Assembly: GCA_949130485.1 (NCBI GenBank)
Contig: OX422186.1
Location: 11,430,771 to 11,494,770, forward strand
From: Agelas oroides
Taxonomy: Eukaryota; Porifera; Demospongiae; Agelasida; Agelasidae
Direction: 5' to 3'
Length of the DNA: 64,000 bases
Shown here: positions 6,563-63,601 of the stretch, one piece after another
How positions within the stretch are numbered: position 1 is the stretch's first letter
Layout of the letters: each line of letters starts with the position of its first letter
The notes under the pieces: model-generated
Seen by the model: the letters and a program-made list of their open reading frames with translations, nothing else
The model's database searches: none
What the model was told of the DNA's origin: nothing
Position numbers and translations under genes: made by a program

Positions 6563-9176
6563 ATGGAGTATCTTCTACTGCTATTGTTGATGGCGGGGTT
6601 TTTCACAAACAGTTCGTCCGCAAGAAGTGCGTAAGCCTCTCACCAACTACCTTTTGTTGTTTGTGTTGCTAATATCATCTGTTACAAAATTACGAGTTGG
6701 AACTGTTCCATTGCTCGTTTATAGATAGCCTGACGAAATTTCAGTGCTGGAACTGTTATTTATTTTAGTGTATGTAGCTAATAGTGTTACTTGTTTTACA
6801 AAATACAACTTCATGTACATTTAACTGACGTACATTTGAAGTATATAAGACTGTCACTTGTTTCACAAGATAAGATGCACAGATGCACTTAGTCTCATGC
6901 CCAGACTATTTTTTGCCAAGCGGGTGCACAAAATGTGGTTTGGGAACGAGACTAGTACAGTAAACCAATTGACTGATCCATGTTAATTTCATAGACCTCA
7001 CAGAAATACGCTACCACTTCACAACGTGTGGAGCTTCTGGTCGCAATGGACCCACACCAGTTCAACGAACTTGTGCACAGCATTACAGGGAGATAAACTC
7101 ACCCATTCAAACATTATTTGGGTTTGGACCAAACACGTTTCAAGGAGCTCAGGGATTTAGACTTCCTCAGGCTGGTTTGTACAACATCACTGTTGCCGGG
7201 GCATCTGGGGGCAGAGGGCTGTGTAATACCGTATTTGGTTTTGGTGCTGTTCAGAAACTGCAAGTGGAATTGTCTTTAGAGCATGAATTGTTGATCCTTG
7301 TTGGTCAGCATGGAATCAGTCCCTGTGAGGTGGACGATGTAGATCCTGAGCTATGGCAGCTGCTGTGTGAGGATCCACCAAGCTCATTCAATGAAAGTGA
7401 AGATTGTCAGATCGTGTGGCGTGAATGGCTACTTGAAGCATATAATGGCACTGCGTCACTGTTCTTTGGTAATGTTACTGGCGGTGGTAGTGGTGGAGGA
7501 GCTAGCATGATAAGACTGATAGAAGCAGAAAGTGGGCAGTTTGCTGATCTTCCATTGGTAGTGGCTGCTGGAGGTGGAGGGAGCCCTGGAGTGCTAGTGT
7601 ATAGAACTGATTACTTTGCAAATCTTAATATCACTCTTAGCATAGAAGAACAGTATCTTCAATACTTGGATGGCAGACCATATGCTTTTGTACCTGATGG
7701 TGTACGGGGAAATAGAGATGAAAGGTTCACTGCTATCAGTTCTGGAGCTGGAGGGGGGTGGACCCGACATTTGAGTGTTATAGATGCGCCCATTGATGGA
7801 ATGCCACTAAGTGAGTCTCAAAACTTTGCCCAGGGAGGATCTGACTGTGCAGCAGTGCTTGGAACAGCTCCTTATCCATTTAAAGGAGTGTATGGTGGTT
7901 TTGGTGGAGGGGGGGGAGGGTGTGGGGGAGGTGGAGGAGGAGGTGGATTCATGGGTGGATCAGTTTTAGTTCGGGCTATTCCTGTTGAGGAGCTTGGTGG
8001 TGGTGGTTTGTCGGTGTACTTCAACAATTCACCACTGATTCTGTATGACAGGGGATCAGGTTATAATACTGCCACAATGGATGGCTACATTGACATTGTG
8101 TTGTCCAACTGTGGGTGTGTGCACGAGTGTGTCGTAGATGAAGAGGCTGACCAGTTCAAGTGTCTTTGTCCAGAAGATGCACAGCTTGCTCCTGATCAGA
8201 GCGACTGCTTCAAAGGTGAGCTATGTCACAAGTATTGTGAAGATGTACTGGGTTGTTGCAAGGTTATGGTGCCAAGTCATTTGTCATGTTATTCTCTCAA
8301 CTGTGTCTCTAACCGTCTGTCTGTGCATCTTCCCTTGTAGCTACTGAAATAGGATTGACAGAAGTAGATCTGATTGGAGTAAACCAGGACGACTTTTACT
8401 TCTCAAATCTATCTCTGAGCTCCCAGCACTTTATCTTCAGCTTGGAGATTAACCTCACAACTGTACCTAACCAGCAGAGAAGGAGGCAAGTCAGACAGAG
8501 TGGTGGTTCTTCAGGGGATGACGAGGAGCTGTGTGCAGTTATATTTGTTGGAGATGAATCTGTTGTCCTGGTATCCAATGTTGTGAGGTAAATTCATTGT
8601 TTCCTAGCAACATTAAAGCTTTAAAAATGCTCAGTCACCAGCTCTGGAAACCAGACTAGCAGCTTAGATAAGAAATTTTTCCACATTGCATTAATAAGTG
8701 CCTCCTACACTTCTTTGTTGTATAAACTGTTGCCATAGTTATGATGAGCAAATTTGAACACTGGTGCCTTTACTTCTTTAATCCTCCTTGTTTGTTTGTT
8801 TGTTTGTTTGTTTGTTTCTTGTTTGTTGCTTTGTTTGTTGCTTGTTTCTCTCACAGGGGAGCAGGAATGGCCAACCAGCTTGCACCAGTATCCCACAACA
8901 ATAGCACATTCATCATATCAAGCTACATCCCTTTCCTAAACTCCCCGGAATTAGTCAGGGGTGCACTCCTTGTCAGTACTGGTTCTTGCTCTGTGGTGGA
9001 CATGAAAATCAGAACTAATACCAGCATTAAGGAGGCCAGCGAGAGTATGTATATGTTAGTAATGGGAAACATACAGAAAATAAAATATACTAAATGATGT
9101 CTGTTTGTTTTTATGAGCATAGAAAAAAAAAAAGAAACTCACTAGCTTTAGCAACCAACTCGGCTCCTTTAACTGG

Positions 9177-34907: not shown

Positions 34908-37900
34908 TCAGTTGTCAGTCACAAGCATGAGTTCTCCATCCTCATCGTAAGTTAAACGTTGGGTACGAACTTGCCGAACTGGAGGTTTAATTGGTCGTTG
35001 CTCTAATTCAATAAACTCAATATCGTGATTTCCATTTTCATCAGATTCTGTTGTATGTATGTGGAGTCCATGTTCATCTCTGCAACGTCTGATATTAGTG
35101 AGGAATTCGAATGCAAGTACAGTGTGCCAGATAGTGTAGATGCATGTGTACTTGTAAATGTGGTAGAGCATAATCAATATAAAGGTTGTGAATGCAATTG
35201 CGATTGACACGAACACAGGTATAGCTGTGTTTCCACTGATGAGGCGAAGGTAGAGGGTTGTAGTAGACAAAACCCCCAAGTTTAATATAAATGATACATC
35301 AAGGCTGTCCAGAGTTCTGGATTTGTACACTCCTGAGAAAAAGGCAATCTGTGCGCTGAGGAGAACCATTACTGCAATGATTATAATAATGAGATCAAGA
35401 GCTTTGTTTCCAGAAGAGTTAGTGGCAAATCCTAAGAAGAGAATGGCACGTACAACTAGTAGCAATCCAGCCCAAAACTGGCACTTGTCTTTGTACGGAC
35501 CCCCGTAGGGATCAAACACTGGTTTTAGCCTCCTTACCCAAACGAGCATTCTGTGCCTCGACTTTCTGCGTAGCCACTGCATGGAAAAAACCACAAAAGT
35601 GTAGGGAAGTAGGAAGGTTATTGAGATCAACAATGCTGCAATGAACAGTGGAATATGCTTTCCTTTGAGGTAGTCTACATCCCCATCATAAAGCCACACA
35701 GCTTTCCAGTGTCCATCTGGGTAAGTAAGGTAGGTGAAGGAAAGGATTATAAGAACTGCCCTCAGAAGTTTTGCATAGGATAGCAGAAACAGTGTTGCCA
35801 GAACTTTTGGTGCATTTTGACCTACGAGCCTTGCAACAGTTGTATAGTAGTGACTCAGGACTATCATAAGAGCCACTAAGATCCAGATGTATGCTGGAAA
35901 TGCAAACTGTAACCATGCTTTTGCATACATGTCCATGCTGTTGAAAAAGCAGGTCTCAATGCCAAGGTCAAGATTGAGCCATGCCACAAATACTGTTAGT
36001 ATGTTGATTTTGTCTCCTGGAAGGAATGTAGGCCGACTCGCTTGGATAATGTTGGCATACAGGATGAGAGCATTGAGTGTTCCTTCAGAAACTGTGAGAT
36101 TACACCACGACAGCAATGCCACTAGTACCAGGCCAGCTGCCACAAAAGCTAAAAGCAACGCCAGATATGCATTTGAACATTTGAGACATCGGGAGGTTCC
36201 AAAAGCAAGGCTGAGTCCTGGCCGACACTTTCCACATAGAATGCCTGAATGATTGAGTGCACACTGTGCATCTGGGTGTTCTAAGTTCAGCACAGTGTCT
36301 TGCTGCTTACAGTAGTCCAGTGGGCAGTGGGTATGTACCATAACTCCACATGTATTATTAGGGCAGTTTGCCATGAAATGGTAATTACAGCCAACCCACA
36401 CTTGGCTGGGACGGTGAATACTTTGAGTGTGAATGTCACATTGGTATCCATGTTTTGCAAGTGCTGAGGCACAACTGCATCTACCTGGTATTCCAGAAAG
36501 ACTGAAACCAGGTGGGCATGGGAGAAGATGAATGTTTATCAGTGGGAAAGCGAAAGGTACTCTTTGCGGGTCTGGACTTTCTGCAGTAAGCTCAAGCCAT
36601 TCATAGTCTTGATTTGAGAAAACAGAATAATTCAAGGTAGTGCAACTTTGGTTGACGTTTTGCGAATATTCCAAGTGGTCAAGAGACTGCAGCTGCTCTG
36701 TGTTGTTTATGAACCTTGCGTGGACGACACCTGGAACAATACCATTGCTTTGCCCAACCACAGCTACAGATGTCTCCAATGTACCACCTGGGAGCACTTC
36801 CTTGACAACCACCTTCCTTTCACAGTCAAGTTTGCCATTCGCACAGAAGCACACACCAATTGGATCAGATGCTATTACAGATAGATCATTTTGGATTGTG
36901 TGGTTAAAAAACAGCTCTTTCAAAATCATTCTTGAATTTTGCAATGCAGTGGTAATCACACTGTAAGGCAAGAGGTAGCACTGATCTATATAACCGCCAT
37001 AGAGTACACTACCAGCTACTCCAGCTGTGTTGTTTGAAAAATAAGCAGCAATACCTGTTTCTGAAAAGGGCTTATTATTGAGCAAGGTTGGCTGAAGAAA
37101 GCAGGGATGCAGTGTACTAAATACCATGTAGTTCTCTACATAAAAAGCCCCTCCTCTCTTTTCAGCATGATTATTGTGAAAGTACATCTTTGTATTGGGC
37201 TTTGGTATTAGAAAAGAGCCAAAAAGTGCTAGCGCTCCTCCATTCCAGCCTCTGTTATCCGAGAAAGTCATGCTTCCATTGAAGTATATGTTGCTTTCAT
37301 AAGCAAGCAGTGCTGTAACACGGTTGTTGTGGAAAGTACAGCTAACAAACGTCACATTTTGAATGCCATACAGCAACACAGCAGCTGCAGCAGTATTCTG
37401 ATACACGGATCCTATATTGTGCCAATGCATGTCAGCAGATGGCAAATGACTGTTGTAAAATGACACATTTTCAACCTTGAAATGTGAGGGAGAAATGCCT
37501 AAGTGTGCTGCATCAACAATCATGATGGCCATAGAGTGGTAGCCACTGTTGTCCAGAAATGTACAGTCTCGTATTCTAATAGTATCTTCAATGCTTGGAG
37601 AACCTGTACACGGTAAAATACTGTCACGAGCAAAATGTATGTCCAAACCAGTATACCACAGTCCAACATTGTTAATAAAGTGACTGTTCACTATGATCAC
37701 CTGTGGATGTGTGTTGCATTTTCTGTGGGTATATCCACTATAAGCACTGGTGTGGAGGAAAACTATGCCTAAACCGCCTGCCTTTGCAGCCACACCAGAA
37801 TGGAAAATACAGTTTTTGACAACGATGGAGTGTGATTTAAAAGTTTTGCTTACCACAACAAGGCCCATACTGCCATAGTTGACTTCACCAACATACCTGG

Positions 37901-39773
37901 TCGATGTTCCTGTAACTCGGTTATTCCTGAACGTTACATTGCCCAGCTTTATTCTGTATAGTTGGCATACAGCTTTTAGAGCAATACTGATGCCACCAGA
38001 AGCTGCAGAAGCTGTGTTTCCAGTAATTGAAGTGTTTAAAATCATCAAAGTGCTAAATGTAGAATGTGTTTCATTCTCACACGGATACTTTACACTTGCA
38101 AAGAAAAAAATCCCACCACCCCTCTCAGCATATCCGTTTTCAAAGTGACTATTAGTGATGCTAATATGACAGCTAGCTCCAGTAGTGTTCTTAGGCTCAT
38201 TCACAAGAACGCCTAGATTGCCTCCCTCATAACTAGGATCGTCATGCATTCTACCGTTTTCAGACATGATCACGTCATCAATTTGTATGAAAATGTCAAC
38301 ACACAGCTCCTCAATTTCCACATTACATCCAGGAGAAACACGTGATGCCGGAAAGAGGTTGTTCCCTCTTCTGAACTCTGATGACTGAATAGTGAAATGC
38401 ACAGGATCTTTGCAGTCATCTCCAGTGCAGTAGAAGCTAAGAAACAAGTTTCCTCCAACATGTTTATCATCTCCTCTGTTGGCAATAAATCTAGAGTAAG
38501 CGATTTGTGAGTTTCCAAGAACATTCAGCATGAAAATACCGAAACCTGTACTGTTTTGGACAGATACACCAATGATATTCACATCCGTGGATAACACAAA
38601 CATTATAGCTGCAGTGTATCCAATAATTGAGTCCTCAGCACCACAGGAAATCAAAGTGAGGTTTGCAATTAAAATGGACCGTGCAAAATAGAAGGAAAAC
38701 GCAAATCTAGTAGCACACTTAAGGTTACGGGTACAAGTTCATGAATAAAATTAGTATGTCAAAAACTTGCCTATATAACTTTTCCTACATAAAAGCTACT
38801 GGATATTTACAACAGCCAGTCACTACAGAGGGCATTCAGCTATAGTTCAGCATAATACTAACTTCGCTACAGTACACAGTCGAGTGACAGCAGGCGGCTG
38901 CTCGGTGGAGTACGAGTACAAATTTCTACGTCAGTTCGCTCGCGTTGTTGCACACAGAATGCCGTATACCAGCGTTTTATCTATTTGTACGACATCGCTG
39001 CAGGGCCACACGAAGCGTTTTTGAAAGAAAAATTTTCCAGTTCGCCGTAGTTTGTTTTCGAAGTCTCTCGGTACCGGTTTTTCGAGTATTCAGTAGCCTT
39101 TCAGCCACTGCCGCTCAGTTCTGTTCCGAGATATGAGAAAAAACGCTTCGTGTGGCCCTGCAGTGAGTTGCTCTGGCTCTGTTTAAGCCATAAATAGCAG
39201 CTAGTTCCTCCTACTGTCGTAGTAAACTGACGTAGAAGTTTGTACTCGTAATCCACCGAGCAGCCGCCTAGTGTCACTTGACTGCGTACTGTGGCAAAGT
39301 TAGTATTATGCTGAACTGTGGCCGAATGCACTCTGTAGCGACTGGTTGTTGTAAAAATCCGGTAGCTTTTTTGTAGGAAAAGTTATACAGGCAAGTTTTT
39401 GACATACTAATTTTATTCATGAACATGTACCCGTAACCTTAATAACTGGTTGCATATTGCTCAAGGACTTATTTGAAGTTAAATTGTTGGAGTAAGGTGA
39501 CTGGCCAACTAGTGCCAAGTGACTCATTTTTAAAGTTTTTGCGAGAATGGGCCTATCAATAGTGTGTATTCCTTGCAGAAAGTAAAATGTGGTATTGGAC
39601 TTGAAGCAAATAGCTGGGTATTGCAGATAATGGTCAACAGTGTAGCAAGGGTTGCCGGGGCATTGTCCATCATCATTCGGTTTGATGTAGCACACATGTG
39701 TACCATAGCAGTCCAAGACACGGACAAACAGCAACTGGACCAAGAACAGTACTTCCATTTTGCCAATCTCCAT
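34908..39773 (-). CDS. Polytopic membrane protein with beta-helix-like ectodomain, split by a TTAA element
   Basis: Two blocks, 39773-39439 and 38718-34908, join in phase across a 716 bp element to give 1381 codons plus a stop with no other interruption. The N-terminus has a signal peptide (LFLVQLLFVRVLDCYG) and a Cys motif (GQCPGNPC). Residues to about 650 repeat N-glycosylated, Asn-rich strands (FRNNRV, FHNNRV, FSNNTAG) typical of right-handed parallel beta-helix (pectin-lyase-like) folds. A Cys-rich stalk follows (CPPGFSLSGIPGRCSC, GILCGKCRPGLSLAFG), then about eight to nine hydrophobic helices including AWLNLDLGIETCFF. The tail is short, acidic and cytosolic. I recognise the architecture from sponge and cnidarian proteins of unknown function, probably surface receptors or transport-like proteins. 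Whether the element is spliced or disrupts the gene is undecided. Confidence 0.8.
38723..39438. mobile_element. TTAA-flanked foldback element inside coding exon
   Basis: Ends GGTTACGGGTACA and its inverse, flanked on both sides by TTAA (38719-38722, 39439-39442), as for piggyBac-type insertions. The arms are about 270-300 bp each, so the element is nearly a complete foldback. No ORF of note. On the gene strand the borders read AAG|GTTACG and CCTTAAG|TGT, and a TACTAAT box lies about 33 nt before the AG. It could be removed as an intron. Confidence 0.88.
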
Positions 39774-41858
39774 CTTGCATGATATACTCCTGCAAAAAGC
39801 AATTTTACCAGGTCATGTAATTAAACTACCTACTATAGCTACCCACGTAAATTAACTTACACTTTCTTAGATGACCAATCTTCCAATGCCAGGCAAGTTG
39901 TGTCAATGCCTTATAAAGCTCCATACAGCTAAATAGCTAGACCAGTCCTGTTGACAATCACTCTTTTTGTTATATATCTGAGTTAAAAGATTGTTGTTTC
40001 AATTTCAATTCATGAGTAGATGGGATTACTAAATCACAGGCAAACTCACAAAGTGTGTGACAAAAAACAATCTTTTGTAGGGAGGTTGCAGTTTCACAAT
40101 AATGAAAAAAACAAAAAAAAAAACAAGGCTTAAGGCTCTACTACATTCTACCATGGGTCTACTTGACTCTACATGACTCTACTACACTCTACCATGGCTC
40201 TACTTGAGTCTACATGACTCTACTACACTCTACCATGGCTCTACTTGAGTCTACTTCACTCTATACTAACAAAAGAAACTGTTCATCTGATAGTCAACTA
40301 GCTGTAGCAATGTGCTTGAGATCATTTCAAAGTACCAGTATGGTATGGCAAGCCGTTTGTTTCAAAATTGTGGATTCAACATTGTAGGTACACATAAATA
40401 GGAATGTTCAACACCTACACATTGTTGATAAATGTATATATTGATGGTATGAGGCAAAATAGAAAGAGAGAGACAACCCAGGGTCAGGCTCAGAGCTGCC
40501 AGCGCCCTGACTACTCAGCTGCAACTGCTCGGGAATCACCATGCACTTCTCTGTATGTAGGTGGTACTGAATGTACCACCTATATAGTATATATATGTGC
40601 TGTCAAATTATCGTATAGTGGGAAACTTTCGAGGGAGAAAACGCTCATGAATTTTGAGGCTCGCAAAAGTTTCCCACTATATGGTATGATGTTCACCCGA
40701 AAAAAAGCCATACTGAGTTGTTTCTCTGACCTAAAAGGTTTAGCATCTTGTCTCCACAAATACCCACTTTCTCCCCCTCATGTCATCAAATGTGTTGATT
40801 TACAGCTGAAGCAAGTATGCATGTAGCTGTATAATGCGGTGATCTTACTAAACTAGGAATACGTAGTCTCGTTCCCAGGCCTCCCCCGTTTTTACCTTCC
40901 GTTTGCGTTCACAATAATACACGGGAGCGGAAGACCGGCGAAAAACGGGGAAGGCCTCCAATAATACACGGGAGCGGAAGACCGGCGAAAAACGGGGAAG
41001 GCCTCAATACACGGGAGCGGAAGACCGGCGAAAAACGGGGAAGGCCTCCAGGCCTTCCCCGTTTTTCGCCGGTCTTCCGCTCCCGTGTATTATTGTGAAC
41101 GCAAACGGAAGGTAAAAACGGGGGAGGCCTGGGAACGAGGCTAAGGAATACGCATGCGCAGAGTATGCCTCGCGCAGAAGAATATCCGGAAATATGCAAG
41201 TAGATATCCGTTGTAACCACGTGTAGCGTGCATGTAGGTGCTAGGTGCTGCAGACGAGATAGAGCGATGAAGATGGCAAAGCGGTCGTCTGAAGAGTTTC
41301 AGGAAGTGAGCGTAGTGTCATGCGAGTATCTGTCAGACTCTTTCTCCTTTGCCTTACTCTCTTCTGATGCAGTGTCCCTTTGTTTCCGTTTTCGCTCTCT
41401 AGCACTAGTCTCGCGGAGCCTGACTCTCACTCTAGCACGATCACGCTTTGACTGCTTCTGCTCCATTTCGGCTCTCGCACGATCTTTTTCACACGTCGAT
41501 CGCCTCCTGGTCGGACCAGTACCATGTGGCCCCTGCTCCGTTTCGGCTCTCGCACGCGCACGATCTTTCGATTGCCTCCTGGTCGGACCAGTACCACGTG
41601 GCTAGTAGTCTGGGGACGAGACCACAGAAACCGCGCCCACGCAATTAAAGTGTGACGGATATATATATATATACATACATACATACAAACGCGAGCTGAC
41701 TACACTGCACGATTAGTAGCCTCGCGCTAAGGCGCTCGGCAATCAAGAAAACTCTACAACATGACATACACTGAAATATTCCAACAAACATGCAAATACT
41801 GGTATTTACAGAAAACATCTTACATTACACTATGTAATAGGTATCCTAACAGTGTACT
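39774..41858. other. Intergenic, repeats only
   Basis: No gene recognised. Holds a 41 bp triplicate (40135-40262, ctctaccatggctctacttg), a small palindromic element with ends atagtgggaaacttt (about 40612-40681), a MITE at 40864-41143 and a duplicated block of about 80 bp at 41455-41602. Confidence 0.5.
40864..41143. mobile_element. Foldback MITE with internal triplication
   Basis: TAGTCTCGTTCCCAGGCC...GAGGCTA flanked by the 9 bp repeat aggaatacg (40855-40863, 41144-41152). One arm contains three tandem copies of a segment around gggagcggaagaccggcg, and the other arm has one. Confidence 0.88.
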
Positions 41859-44314: not shown

Positions 44315-47300
44315 TATGTGTGAGTGAATGTGTGTGTGTGTGAGTGTGTGAGCGAGTGTGTGTGAGTGTGTGAGTGAGTGAGTGTGTGTGTGTGTGTGAG
44401 TGTGTGTGTGTGCGTGCATGTGTGTAGATCATGATTACTATTAGACACTATTCCTGCTTTTCTTTGTATAATTTCTTATCGGGTATGTACCGTAAGCAGT
44501 TTAATTAAGGTGCCACTACAACTTGTACGGGCACTTTGCTTGGATAGGTATATCAGGGGTACATTGTTTAGAGATGTAATTTCTTAATGGAGTGGCACAG
44601 TCAGGCAAAGTTGTTATCAGGGTGCTGGCTAATAAGGAACACTTTGCTGCAACATGGGTATGTGGCCAGAAGGCACCCTTTTTGGAGTGGAGAAAAATGT
44701 TTTCAGAACCAATATGTATGTGATATAATGGTAGCCTCGTTCCCAGCCCTTCCCACCGTCCAGTTTTTAATCGCTTGCAGTATGCAAAAATGGAGGGGGA
44801 AGGCCTGGTCCATTTTATCACGTGAATGATGTTTTGTCTACCTAGGTAGACAGAGGGGGAGAGGGGTCCCTGAACACATTTCGCACATGTGTTCTTCGTT
44901 TTGAAACAGGAGCGGTATGTTTTTCGCTTCACGAATGTTCGAAACTTCAGCACTTGGGGCAGAAACTACAAGATAAGGCCTCAAGCTCGTTTTTTTTTTT
45001 TTTCAATCGGGGACCCCTCCCCCTTCTGTCTACCTAGGTAGACAAAACGTCATTCACGTGATAAAATGGACCAGGCCTTCCCCCTCCGTTTTTGCATACT
45101 GCAAGCAATTAAAAACTGGACGGTGGGAAGGCCTGGGAACGAGGCTAATATAACGGTACACCTTCTCTCAAAATGCCTACCTGAAGACGGATAGAACAAA
45201 CTCTTCAGAGCATTTTCCAACCTCTGGAGGTGAGCTGAACGAAACAAAGTCAACATTCTCTTCAGTGCTAATTAGACACGTTCTTATGCATGCAGCAAAA
45301 ACACCTAAATACCAGAAATAATAGAGTCATTTTATTCTTAGTCTACAGACAATGTGAGATTCCCCCAGAGAACTTGCTATAGTCAATTTCCAATGTGAGG
45401 CTGTACCTCTCTTGTGGATACCCATTGCCTTCAGCTCCTTTGATTTGAGGTCCTTCAGGTTCTCTACATCCTCCTCGGTCTTGTATCCCTCAGCGTGGAA
45501 GAGCTCGGTATACTCCTCCAGCTCCAATCCAACTAGCCACGCCTCCACGCTTTGCTGTGGGAGGAGAACCGGACGTGTCAGACCGAACAGTGTGCAAAAA
45601 CTGTTCCACCTGTCACATTCAAGAGCTCAATTTGATCGACTAGAGTATGCATGGAACACTGCAACTGAATGAGGGTGACAGGAAATGAGGCGTGTAATCA
45701 TGTTTTATTCTGTAGATTTTCAAAGTCACCGATACTCAGTCTGCAATACATTAATATTGGGCTGACTAGTCAAGTACCAATATAACCGGCCGAGTACAAA
45801 ACAAATCCAGCAAGTTTCTGCAAGTAAAAGATTGGCTATACCTTGCATCGTTGAGCATGTAAGCAACCACTAATCCTGGGCGTAGCAGCATTGAGGTATA
45901 GGAGGCAGCTACCTCATTTTTACCACACACGCTTTGTCCATATAAATAACTCGCATGTTATTGGCAAGTTACATCATTGATCTGATGGCTATGAAAAAGC
46001 GACGGATACCACAGCAACTGCAAAAAGGGTTTTGCCTTGACGCCTGAGTTATAATGTACAAATTAGTGTGGAAAAAATATGTGAGTACATTCATAGTAAA
46101 AATTTCGCCACATGCAAAGTGCGCAGATATTATTATTACCTCCTTGTTCTCAAAAATCCTAGCTACGCCAATGACTAGAGGTCTCAAGTTGAAATTTCAA
46201 TCAAAGTCTTCAGGTGATAACTCACCGGAATGGCAGTTTCAATGGGTAGGGAAGGGAGTTTCTTGGCTGCCTTCTCCAATCGAAGCTTGAATCCCCTTTT
46301 GTCTATACCAATAGCCTCGAAATCCTGGTGGAAGTATGACCACAATCGTTTATAACTGACAGGTGCAATCAAGACCGAGAAACGGTTCATCAATACAAAT
46401 AACTTTCTTGCAATTCAGAGAAAGTCTGCCATGGACTCATACCTTAGGCTTCATAGAAGAGACAAAGTGTTTGTTGACGTAGCCATGCTCTTCAAACTTC
46501 TCAATGTAACACTGCAGTAGATAAAGTGAGCAATAAACTACATATACAGTACCCCGGCTTCAGTGTTGTCATCTTAGGCTAACTAAAATCAGCAGCACGA
46601 TGCTCACTGATAGCCTCGTTCCCAGGCCCTCGCCCAGCTTCCTGTCGCTTGCAGTGCCCCGCCCAGCTTTCCGTTGCTTGCAGTACTGCAAGCGACAGGA
46701 AGCTGGGCGAGGGCCTGGGAACGAGGCTAGCTCACTGAGGCTCGCCCCATTATGCTGAAGCATCTGCCTAGTTCATTATAGTGATCACAGAGATTATGGT
46801 ACAACATTGCAGCAATGAATCCTCACAACATAGACAATACTGGTGAGTATGTTTCCATAGTAATTGTTGTTACAGGTAATGGAGCTGCATAAACAAGGCT
46901 AGCTCAAACAACCCACATCCTGAGGTGGTCAAGATGCTAGTTAGCTGACCTCACACTCCAGGTCAGTCAACCACTGCCGTGTCTCTTCGTCCATTGGCTT
47001 GTGTTTTACGGGCACAATCGGAACTGATGGAGCTGTGAACAGACAAACAGTTAAACTGTATATAACTTCCACATGGCAGCTCCATGCAAGGGCCCTACAA
47101 CTAGAGTAGAATCAAAAATGTGCTTTAGTTTTAATATGAGCCACTTGCATTCATCTGCCTCCCCACCCCCCACACTTTTTGAATCCTACTTACGAGATGA
47201 AGAGGTTTCTTTGCTTTCAGGAGGTTGTTCATCTTCCTTCTCTTTCTCCTCCTTCTCTTTCTCCTCCTTCCCCTTCTCCTCCTTCCCCTTCTCATCTTCT

Positions 47301-50300
47301 TTTTTCCTACCACAGCAGCGTGCACAACAAAGTGATGTCTTCACCCATGCTTTCTTAAGATAGTCTTTCAGTACGTCTGTGGCCCCTCCGTCTCCACCTT
47401 TTCCTTCTCGTGTGCCCCAGCTCTGACTGTTGAGGTTGGCGGCTGAGTAGATCAAAAGGAGAAGGTAGCCGGATGGAAGGGCGAGAAGGTACCATATGCA
47501 GTGCGCTAGGCAGCTCCACTCTGGAAGATGAAGAACAGCAGCGGTGGTGAATGTGACAGCAAAGAGACCCAGGTAGATGGTGCTTGCGCTGACTGGCAGC
47601 CTGAAGCCAGGATTACCCACTGTGTTTGGAAGGGACCCTAAATAGTTGGCTGCTTTCATACAGTCCACGAAACCAGTTGTATCAGATACAGAGAGATTGG
47701 CACCAGGCTGTATAGGTTTTAAAAAGCTGGAACAGTTTGGTGGATTCAAGAATGTCAAGCTTGGACCTGGGAATATGCTGTCGATGGTGTCTTTGAAGAT
47801 TCCGGTGACTACTACTGCCATAACGATTGCAAATACAAAGGTTAGCAGTTTAGCAATGTCGAGTTGGGTTTTCTGGGAGGTATAGATGCATATGATCCCG
47901 AATATCACACTCACTAGGATGAGAATGACGATAAGTGCTAGTGTGAATCCATCTGAAAGTTTGTAAGCTGACTGTAGACCAGAAGCAATCAGGAGAACCA
48001 CAGTGGCAGGAGAGATTGCTGTCGAGAAAACCATGACAGCTTGGAAGATGATGAAGATAATCGAGACAGTGTCGTTTCCACGAGTGATACTACGTGACTC
48101 TGAGATCAACAGAGCCAAGTTGGCTACAGTAGAGGGAACCCAACGACGACGCTGCTTGAAAAATTCATCAAAAGCCTCAGGACAGTAGGTGTAATCTTCA
48201 GAAATAGCACAATACTCAAGCCTCCAGCCCTTCTGGATGAGGAGAGTACAGAGCCAGCGATCCTCACCCATATCCTTTATAAGAAACTCGAAGCCACCCG
48301 TCACATCTGATGAGTATTCTTCAAGGACATCCTTCAGGGCGCTGCAGCGAAAGACACTGAAACAGCCTGGACAGCACAGGACACATCCTAGAATATGCTC
48401 AGCGGGCTTTTGAAACCAGTGGCCAATAGCGTAGTCAAAGATCTGATACCAATACACCGGTCCAGCACCTTTGGGGTGTGTCCTGGCGCAAACTGCACCT
48501 ACCTTTGGATTTGAAGCAAGATTATCCAGTAGAACAACGGCTGATTCTGATGTGAAGTCAATGTCAGCATCAGTGGTGAGGATGAATGTGTTCTCAGGCT
48601 CGAGGTTATCTTGTTGAATTCGGTAGTTGATAACGTAGTTCATGTACATGACCTGGCTCCAACGCTTCTTGTTCTTCACCTTCAGGTTGTCTTTCATGTG
48701 GACAGTAAAACGCATTCCATCGTTGAACAAAAACCACGTCAACCGGTACCCATACGGCGTTTTTTCCCTTCTACAACCCTTTAACTTCACTTTGAGGGTA
48801 TCTTCCAGAAGGGAGACGAGCTGGAGAGCATAGTGTGTCAGCTGGGTGCCGTTGATGGCACCGTCGAAGAAAACGTGGGACTCAAACCTGTCATATCCAC
48901 CATTTGGATTGTTTTCACGCTGTTTTTCATAGTAGTGTGCGACACGGTAGATGGAGGTCAGCATCTGACTCATTTCAACGTCATTCTCGTGGTACATGGT
49001 GGAACAGATGAAGATAGTCCTGGGAGGCCTCTGGATTGGGCCACCTTGTGATCGATAAGCCACTTGACCCTTTTTACGTTTTTTTGTCTGCCTGTTGAGC
49101 ATTATCTGCTGCTCGAGGAAAACTCCATCATAGTAGGGAATGAGAAACATTTCTGTGTCCTTGGAAAGAATGATGTTTGAGTGAGTCCATAGGTAATAAC
49201 CCATTGCAAGTATCTCACCAAACCAAAGGACAGATGCGATGAGTGGTGCAGCGGGGTAAGCTGCGTCAAAAAGATCTCTTGGATTGTAATGTGGAAAGTA
49301 GCCCTCGTGATTCACCGTGGTCTGGAACCCGATATAGTACCAGGCCACCGAGAAAGGAGTTGACAGGATAAGAGGGAGTGCTAGGCCGGACCAGTGAAGA
49401 GTCATCGTACAGGATATCCAGACAAAGAGGTAGGCAAAGAAGGTTGTTAGGATTTGGACAAGAAAGTTGGCAAGATCGTCGCCCCTCCAGTTCAAGTCAA
49501 GGTTGCAGCTATCCGGGTTATCTTTGTCATGTTCCAGGCACCAAGGGTCAACACCATGGAAGGTGAAGTACCTGAAAACGAGGTATGAGATGAAGGGGTA
49601 GAGGAGCACCTTGCAACCCGAGTTGATAAAACCTAGGTGCACGAGAAAAATAAAGAGTGACGTCATCATTCATCATTTTACTTAGTTACATGTACTACAG
49701 TGGAACCTCTATAATGCAGACACCATTGGTGCCATCTAAAGTGTTCTGAGTAAAGAGGTGTCCCTACTTCGGAGGCTTCCGGTATATTTCCAGTAGGCAT
49801 GGCAATGCGTACTCGTGCCGTTGAGCACTACAAAGGCGCGTTCCAGAGCTCTCCCTTGCTGTACGATGGCAAGAAAGGATAACCAGAGGCTAGAACTATG
49901 CGTACCAGTGTTAGTATAATGTCCAGTTGGTGAATCAATCAGCGGTGCCGGACAATCTTGTGCGAGAGGCCTGCCAGCGTCCGCATTATCGAGTGAATTT
50001 TGTACAGTCCAGGTACTAGCGGGACCGCAAAATCTGTCCGCTTTACGGAATAGCGAGGTGTCCGCATTTCGGAGAGCTGTAAAATATTACGTGTAATGCA
50101 AATTCAATCCGGACCGCAACATTTTGTCCTGTATAATGAGGTGTCCGCTATAGAGAATGTCCGTTAAGGGAGGTTCCACTGTATAACGATAAACTTGATT
50201 CCAGTCATAGGATACAGACTCAATGTGGACCTTGACCTTTCAGGAAATCAACATCAGAACAGAAACACACTTCAACTTATTGCAGTGCTGTTTATTGTGT

Positions 50301-61286: not shown

Positions 61287-63601
61287 TTAATAGTTGTAAC
61301 TAAATTCAGGCATTTTATCAAGCTGTTCAAGAATGTCAGTCATAGGTGGTCGGTCTTCAGGTTTAGTCTTTGTGCAATGAATTATGAGGGCATGCATTGA
61401 CAGCCACTTTCTTCGAACTTGGCGCAACATGTTGGAAAAATTGTCCGGATCAGGAAACTTTTGTGTGATGACCTCACACAGCAGTACTCCAAAGCTATAG
61501 ACATCTATCTTTGGTGTTTGTGGTGGAGGATGTGAAGTATGAGGCTGAGGAAAACCCTCCGGAGCCGTGTAGACCAAGGCGCCCACCCCTGGTGTAGTCG
61601 CCAACCGCAATAAATTTGCAGATCCAAAATCAGAAAGTTTGGCTTTCCAGACATTATTAGCAATTGCTTCCAGGAGAACATTTGCTGAGCTGACATCTCT
61701 GTGGATTATAGGCTCTCTTTGCTGGTGCAAGTAGTTGAGAGCTGAAGCAATGTCTCGAAATATCCGGGTCCTAGTGGTATTCCTAGAGCCTAAGTGCCGA
61801 TTTTCATATGCCTTGCGAAGACTCATGTCTAGTATCTCAGTGATGATCATGGGACCCCCTTCATCATCTAGCACTGCAGCAATGAAGAGTAGAAGGTTAG
61901 GGTGACGAACTTGTGCCATTGTGTCTACCTCTCTGTGTATGCGCTCCATTGTGTACGGCTGCAAGATTTCCTTGTAGACTCGCTTCACTGCCACCTTCTG
62001 ACTTCTGAACCTCCCTTCAGCAACATACCCCCAGCCACCTCTCCCAAGGATCTTGTGCTCTTGAACCTGAATATCTTTGCGGGACACTTTCCAGAACTCA
62101 ACTGTTTGGGACCCAGTGCAAGGCTGAGAACGTATTTCACTGAGCCTTTGCTGGAGAAGGACGACTTCAGAGGTCTTTGTCTCAAGTTGCTTCTGAAGAT
62201 CAGATAGCTGTTCATCTAGGTCTGAGCATCTGTGCCAGAGTTGTTCTTTCTCTTCCTCCAGTCTGGCATTCTCTTCTTGCAGCTTTTTGTTTTCCTCTGC
62301 TAAATCACTAGGTGTTGCAGGTTCACTTTGTGAAGATGATGATGAATGTCGATGATCCCTTATAACCCTTTTGTTTGTTGGTTTTGATCTAGAGAGGGTA
62401 AGTTTGAGAGGTTTTGGAGGTGGTGGAGGTTTCTGCGGTTTGGAAGATTTCGTGAGAGGTGCGGGTACTGTAGAAAAAGAGTTAATAACACCTCGAGGAG
62501 GGAGGCGTGAAAATGAGGCAGGGGTATTTGCAGTTTCAGACTCGGGAAGTTTGGGAGATTTCTTAAAATGGAAGAGAGGTTCGGGTACTGTGGAAGAAGA
62601 GTGGGTAACACCTCGAGGGGGGAGACGTGGTGATGAAGTAGGGCTATCAGACTCAGGAGGAGGGGGAGTTAGAATGTTGATGTTTCTGTATGAATGGGGA
62701 AGATCTTTGGCTGACTCTTGATGACTTGGGTATGACAGTGACTCGTTCTTCACTGGATCCAGAGACGGCTGTCGAAGGTTTAAATCTGCACCTTGTTTAG
62801 CTTCCTGGATGACAAGAAAGAGGGCGGGACTCTTGATCATAAGTTTGCATTAATGATTTGGCAATTTCAACTAGGTTCATTGGTGCAGTTTCCTGAGAAA
62901 TCTCACAGTGTTATTGAATGGTGAAGACTGATGCTTCTTAAACACAACAGTTTTATTTTACAACAAAACCAGACAACAAATCACAACATAGTTATATTGT
63001 CATGTTTGGTAAATTGGTAGTAACCCCCCACACAGGTAAATGTGTCTTTTAGAGCATAACTAGATTATTTACTAACTATTTCCCATAGAATAGATGACAT
63101 TACCTCTGATATAGGAAGCCAAGAATTCACATAGTCACAATCATCTGTATCTTCATGATATGCAGGCACAGAGTAGCTCTTCTGTGGGAGTGAAGGTTTG
63201 GGTAGAATACCGTGGGAGGGATCTTTCAAATTGTAGTAGTCCTCATCGTCCTGTGGTGACATTTCTCTTTCTAGAGTGGGAGGATCGTTCTTTGTGTTAT
63301 AGGGGCGAGGGTCTAGAATATTCTTTGATTGTTGAGCTCCCATGGTCAAAGGCTTTCCCAGATTGTAGTACACATGCTGAGTCGTAGTGGCAATTACTTC
63401 TTGTGGACAACTTTTTCTTCTGAGAGCTACATCTGATTCTAGAAAATCCTTCCTTTTGGGAGGGACAGGTGGTTCTGGTTCACAACTCTTATTTCTTCTG
63501 ACATTGGTATGGCAGACATCGGGTATGTAGTCATACTCATCCTCCTTGAACCCATGATGCTGGTCAGGTATTTCCTCGTAGTGCGCTCCCTGTTTTGATC
63601 T
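61287..63601 (-). CDS. TKL-type protein kinase with N-terminal tyrosine motifs (5' end outside window)
   Basis: Two exons are visible: 63601-63104 (166 codons, phase 0) and 62804-61287 (505 aa plus stop). The acceptor at 63602 shows that more exons lie upstream, beyond the window. Exon one holds tyrosine motifs HYEEIPD, DYDYIPD, VYYNLG, DYYNL and CDYVNSW, three of them of the YxN type bound by Grb2-like SH2 domains. The next exon has Pro/Ser-rich stretches, two copies of a SRLPPRGV motif, a coiled coil (about 190-240 of the exon) and a C-terminal kinase: ILGRGGWGYVAEG, VAVKRVY, IIHRDVSSANVLL, LSDFGSAN, APEGF, DVYSFGVLLCE. The active-site residues are present. Its catalytic-loop style is common in TKL kinases of sponges and cnidarians. 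Substrate unknown. Confidence 0.85.

Follow-up and report, generated by a model that had tools for sequence, protein, structure and literature searches.

A very young TTAA-flanked foldback MITE with an intron-like layout in a coding exon of the sponge Agelas oroides

The stretch of Agelas oroides DNA analysed here, 64,000 nucleotides long (hereafter the window), carries a foldback element in a coding exon on its minus strand. Our best explanation, to which we give a probability of about 0.6, is that this element is a Kolobok-type MITE and that the assembled sequence represents a young, disruptive and probably segregating allele of the host gene. A non-autonomous element of about 0.7 kb with 218-bp arms would have been inserted by a transposase acting in trans, at a TTAA inside the host coding exon that was duplicated on insertion. 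The assembled allele would then encode a protein cut after 118 residues, and in the host RNA the element would form a single long hairpin. The foldback structure, the duplicated TTAA and the location in an exon can be read directly, the site is empty at the protein level in relatives, and the insertion is young. A knockout or segregating allele is the most likely state of the locus, but the element may be removed from the RNA.

It is rare to catch a new intron, or the mending of a transposon insertion in RNA, as it first arises. At this locus the insert, its sister copies, the protein-level empty site in relatives and the exact predicted join are known together. For now we see in this locus an ordinary exonic insertion of a very young MITE, whose splice layout is coincidental.

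The element and the gene it interrupts

The features of the element and of its host gene are the following (positions in the window; here and below, a slash marks a would-be junction).

34908..38717, minus strand: host coding sequence downstream of the element, with the stop at 34910-34908
38718..38719, minus strand: would-be acceptor AG, made of the A of TTAA and the first flanking base
38719..38722, minus strand: TTAA target-site copy, downstream side in the host gene
38719..38936, minus strand: inverted arm 2, 218 nt, 91% complementary to arm 1
38719..39442, minus strand: foldback MITE including both TTAA copies, 724 bp
38750..38756, minus strand: branch-like box TACTAAT, AG-free from there to the element end
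38995..39022, minus strand: inner inverted pair, second half, 28 nt
39139..39166, minus strand: inner inverted pair, first half, 28 nt
39225..39442, minus strand: inverted arm 1, 218 nt
39412..39417, minus strand: AATAAA, polyadenylation-like signal on the host sense strand
39417..39419, minus strand: first in-frame stop within the element, where the protein ends after 118 residues
39436..39437, minus strand: would-be donor GT in AAG/GTTACG, weak by a generic matrix
39438..39773, minus strand: host coding sequence upstream of the element, 112 codons, with the ATG at 39773
39439..39442, minus strand: TTAA target-site copy, upstream side in the host gene
39790..39860, minus strand: candidate ordinary 71-nt intron just before the ATG, GTAAGT ... 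TTTTTGCAG, read from the sequence only

On the minus strand the element ends read TTAAG/GTTACG ... TACTAAT ... CCTTAAG/TGT, and the longer reading across both junctions is CAGTTATTAA/GGTTACGGGTAC ... GTACCCGTAACC/TTAAGTGTGCTAC. The original prediction had described a foldback with TTAA at both ends in a minus-strand coding exon, whose removal with one TTAA would mend a broken frame. Both points held: the 218-nt arms are 91% complementary, and leaving out 720 bp (the element and one TTAA, or a cut 39438/38717) gives a single frame of 1381 codons. Since 720 is a multiple of 3, there is no frameshift; the damage comes from in-frame stops, of which there are 13, and the assembled DNA encodes a truncated protein of 118 residues that ends at the first of them, at 39419. 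These stops, together with the AATAAA just inside the element, favour a disruptive allele. The intact flanking frame and the exact placement of GT, branch-like box and AG speak against a pure knockout, which needs none of them.

Judging from a Beta_helix Pfam match just under the cut-off (25.3 against 25.9 bits) and from hydrophobic stretches, the host gene may encode a large protein that has membrane spans and a part resembling a beta-helix. The gene belongs to a large family, with 89 matched stretches in its own genome that are mostly long single frames and partly clustered, e.g. at C13:4610957-4790343, on C17 and at C5:9470759-9615008. Other long frames in the window are chitin-synthase-like (47189-49669, minus strand), protein-kinase (61290-62849, minus strand) and ALK/LTK glycine-rich (6973-8337, plus strand); the last two are in keeping with an animal genome.

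The closest proteins among public contigs, P0001 and P0002, are respectively 95% and 89% identical to the host protein over 99-100% of the length. At the protein level both are uninterrupted at the junction, reading QPIIK-CATRF (P0001) and QPVIK-CATRF (P0002). With residues 1-478 as the query, the high-identity matches in the sponge's own genome are the host gene's own two pieces and no others; the next-best identities are 36-39% or lower, and the best long match has 36%. Own-genome matches at or below 39% imply that P0001 and P0002 are not paralogues from the same assembly, and the empty site in these relatives, with a best other own-genome match of 36%, indicates that the insertion is new. 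No confirmed relative of P0001 was found in genome_contigs, where the window's own-genome records may be absent.

MITEs often lie in introns, and the element might have jumped into an older intron at this site, the gene being spliced as before. We regard this as very improbable. No intron remnant is left once the element is removed, and seven of the eight aligned homologues, which were hand-picked from 54, have unbroken residues on both sides of the junction, the eighth starting further on. On this continuity across the junction we reject an old intron position at the insertion site. Within the own-genome family, open frames of 1000 codons or more contain 61 of the 89 matched stretches, which also stands against an older intron.

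The MITE family and its superfamily

The genome that we searched comprises 259 Mb in 141 contigs. It was suggested beforehand that further copies with the same ends should be sought, and the search returned many: at least 40 near-complete ones (40 scored out of 301 candidates of a full-length search, all near-complete), of which 19 fall at 98-100% and 21 at 91-94%. The 16-base end with its TTAA occurs at 229 sites with at most one mismatch, against nine for the reversed control. With these numbers and the homologues continuous at the site, the element is no product of chance. Thirty copies were fetched, and TTAA is present at both ends in all 27 with both ends readable, the bases further out being unrelated. 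The three set aside are two copies lacking one or both TTAA ends (L012 and L017) and one that runs into N (L019). The start is GG on both strands in 26 of the 27 copies, the other one having GT at one end. Shared flanks were seen at different places for two groups of loci (L025 with L028, and L091-L093), from insertion into another repeat or from segmental duplication. The element has no Rfam family match at E up to 1, and its 27-base end pattern has no exact match in viral_contigs, where the window's own-genome records may be absent.

Compared with the consensus of the 19 young copies, the window copy shows two differences in 724 positions, both of them common to other copies. Its nearest relative (L014) differs by one substitution and a 10-bp gap. 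Against the 29 other copies it has no private substitution, and a copy without private change among 30 is very young. The proposal of a very recent insertion is therefore borne out, both by this and by the empty site in the two closest homologues. Even if all of the 0.28% divergence reflected age, the 4.1 kb of gene would have gathered about a dozen changes, so that the intact frame probably says little on function after the insertion. The empty site, the lack of a close paralogue in the own genome, the TTAA in 27 of 27 copies, the GG...CC ends and the absence of private substitutions favour our best explanation.

We also compared 11 older copies. Next to the 12 terminal positions, the following 38 show 4 changes in 417 at one end and 12 in 417 at the other, and the inner arm shows 61 in 1846. 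One end only is better conserved than the inner arm, and transposition alone could be a sufficient cause of the conserved ends.

The ends also bear on the superfamily. The element had been labelled as of piggyBac type, which we revise. Kolobok elements are described as producing TTAA duplications like piggyBac but with 5'-RR and YY-3' termini, and as having sponges among their hosts (PMC9587614); Xenopus T2-MITEs, as described, carry TTAA plus AGGRR (PMC6004289). The window copy, with GG...CC, carries the Kolobok signature. The genome has 125 matches to piggyBac transposase, and two piggyBac elements were read. One begins with CTC (CTCTTTAGGG) and has TTAA at both ends; the other begins with CCC (CCCATTRCACCC) and has TTAA at one of its two ends. 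The MITE start, GGTTACGGG, is unlike either (n=2). The end sequence thus points to a non-autonomous Kolobok-type MITE. We found no element with GGTTACGGG ends that encodes a transposase, so this putative transposase type is read from the ends alone.

None of the four long-spaced end pairs that we read is an autonomous partner with the same ends. Three of them (L065-L067, 1.1-1.9 kb) are MITE copies with extra sequence. The fourth, a 7.07-kb pair (L068, C19:5648319-5656192), consists of a MITE copy interrupted by a nested insert with gag-pol-like frames, which we take to be a retroelement. A further long-spaced pair on C12 (3477020/3478060) lies outside these four. Two loci on C6, about 4.9 kb from piggyBac fragments (L061 and L062), were considered as partner ends and turned out to be MITE copies shortened by deletion to about 0.3 kb.

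Splice layout and the fate of the element in RNA

It had been proposed that GT and AG are placed such that splicing equals clean excision, that a TACTAAT box lies about 33 nt before the AG, and that the long arms bring the ends together. The first is confirmed by the cut 39438/38717, which restores the frame; the box is present, without another AG between; and the predicted fold pairs the element ends with each other. The layout is not peculiar to this copy. Among the 54 copy-strands (27 copies, both strands), GT is in place in 53, TACTAA occurs within the last 60 bases in 53, and the run from TACTAA to the end is AG-free in 49. The arrangement GT...TACTAA...AG is a trait of the family, in both orientations. 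We also tallied the base that follows TTAA on the outer side at the 51 exact ends on C1-C3: it is G in 16 cases, A in 13, T in 11 and C in 11, so that G after the target is near what chance would give, if slightly in excess. Three things together produce the GT...AG fit: the GG/CC ends of the element, a TTAA duplication whose last bases are AA, and a G just after the target. The ready-made intron layout is real, but it is a common by-product of the element ends, and the splice layout is coincidental.

Could this layout work as a new spliceosomal intron? U1 would bind AAG/GTTACG, U2 would bind TACTAAT, and splicing would end at AAG/TGT and leave the protein unchanged. The correct GT and AG, the AG-free stretch after the box and the exactly restored frame all fit such an intron, and so do published introners with sites drawn from the duplication and the neighbouring exon (PMC9860276, section 7). 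The quality of the signals points the other way. By a generic donor matrix, not specific to the species, AAG/GTTACG scores -0.84 for a maximum of 8.63, and 1234 of the 8368 GT sites in the window match or beat it. On the same scale four RTCB donors, all CAG/GTGTGT, score 5.53 and the host gene's candidate donor 2.61, both above the element donor. This native comparison covers one gene, with four GT donors and two acceptors whose exon ends were placed by eye against RTCB sequence. The pyrimidine share before the AG is a mixed point: it is 0.61 here against 0.97 and 0.91 at the two RTCB acceptors, but the acceptor of the host's candidate 5'UTR intron has 0.58, so that the element acceptor is not clearly bad. 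Of the 14 TACTAAC or TACTAAT sites on both strands of the window, 4 have their first AG 18-45 nt later.

The RTCB locus (L104, C21:1634400-1638400, minus strand) has peculiarities of its own. All four GT introns that we read start CAG/GTGTGT and lead into long GT microsatellites, and two acceptors are preceded by long CT-rich tracts. One further intron might be of the AT-AC (U12) type, exon/ATATCCT ... CCTTGAC ... CAC/exon (sense ~2656 and 3513). A 24-residue stretch occurs at least twice between GT microsatellites (sense ~1684-2300), as a duplicated exon or an assembly effect.

As RNA, the element is predicted to fold into a single hairpin (-455 kcal/mol, 781 nt), with both TTAA copies, the donor and the branch box all in paired positions. 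This pairing also stands against use of the signals by the spliceosome, as does the distribution of the copies. A long joined frame was found at one of 29 readable loci, the window copy itself (624 codons within the fetched flanks), followed by frames of 192 and 185 codons (L030 and L022) and then of 145. The four recognised coding stretches of the window hold 19 of its 166 TTAA sites; at this rate about 3 of 28 copies (one fewer than the readable loci) would be expected in coding sequence, and the probability of finding at most one is 0.15, which indicates neither enrichment nor significant depletion. Open frames of at least 100 codons lie within 400 bp outward of 2 of 55 TTAAG-flanked ends, against 3 of 47 TTAAG sites in the window as a control. 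These 55 ends are 52 of the 55 exact ones (leaving out C1:25697822 and C1:25697895, which are back to back, and C6:3607370) and three inexact ones (L016, L020 and L029). The two ends with frames belong to the host gene and to a transposase-like fragment. The latter adjoins an older copy with TTAAG on both sides (C1:3618749-3619472, L069/L070), whose flanks join into a 140-codon frame with weak helix-turn-helix matches, e.g. HTH_Tnp_Tc3_2 at E 0.04, all under the cut-offs.

Of de novo intron gain, initially proposed as the alternative to a very recent knockout, the GT/AG layout is upheld; the gain itself is weakened by the poor donor, by signals lying in the hairpin stem and by copies without a tendency towards coding exons. 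We consider a working spliceosomal intron distinctly unlikely. The weak donor, the stem-buried signals and the counts of 1/29 loci and 2/55 ends favour a disruptive MITE insertion.

The same hairpin might suit a route that is independent of the spliceosome. Zhao et al. are said to have reported, in Nature in 2026, that the trigger of SOS splicing is paired inverted ends and that its factors are AKAP17A and CAAP1. Here, the paired arms would be recognised, the element cut out and the ends joined by RTCB. The element is exonic, its 218-nt arms have ends that pair together in the predicted hairpin, and the genome has four RTCB exon matches as well as a CAAP1 match above the cut-off (43.6 bits). 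In metazoans, SOS splicing is described as excision of the transposon by an unknown nuclease, after which RTCB joins the pieces (PMC13247085). The presence of CAAP1 and RTCB is permissive evidence only, since having the factor genes does not show activity on the host transcript. Such excision is in our view unlikely, and if the RNA is mended at all it would be at least as likely as normal splicing.

A wider reading takes the whole Kolobok-type family as a removable insert at any coding-exon TTAAG. Since GG start, TACTAAT box and AG-free run are found in either arm, removal might occur in both orientations, and the locus would then show intron gain, or hairpin-directed removal from RNA, at birth in an animal, while close relatives keep the empty site. 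We hold this reading as tentative and give it less weight than a disruptive, probably segregating MITE allele.

Comparison with known systems

The closest likeness is to non-autonomous Kolobok elements such as the Xenopus T2-MITEs, which, as described, share the TTAA duplication and the RR...YY ends, as well as long inverted repeats, a lack of coding sequence and membership in a young, high-copy family (PMC6004289, PMC9587614). The start differs, being GGTTAC here and AGGRR in T2-MITEs. MITEs of piggyBac type use the same TTAA target duplication, and piggyBac transposases are common in this genome, but the start here is GGTTACGGG and no piggyBac element with such ends was found.

Introners derived from DNA transposons resemble our element in being non-autonomous, with inverted ends, a donor in the element and an acceptor made from the duplication and the exon, a recruitment described in section 7 of a survey that found introners in 175 of 3,325 genomes (PMC9860276). 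This survey gives, among animals and land plants, only two groups with introners, both animals, and the word 'sponge' is absent from its main text. Here, splice signals are likewise carried or made at insertion, weak and stem-paired as they are. Introners occur as introns in many coding genes, whereas one of 29 readable loci here lies in a long joined frame, and its splicing is a prediction. The hairpin introners of Amoebophrya have non-canonical ends, and their repeats are of 8-20 nt, against arms of 218 nt in this element (PMC7789003).

The remaining comparison is with exonic transposons removed from RNA. In C. elegans, a Tc1 in exon 7 of dpy-19 is described as removed from the pre-mRNA, likely through a cryptic splice site and with a loss of 49 bp (PMC12405876). 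Tc1 belongs to another superfamily, and its join loses sequence where the one predicted here would restore the frame exactly. What our element shares with Tc1 and with the substrates of SOS splicing is that it is a DNA transposon in an exon, with inverted ends that pair.
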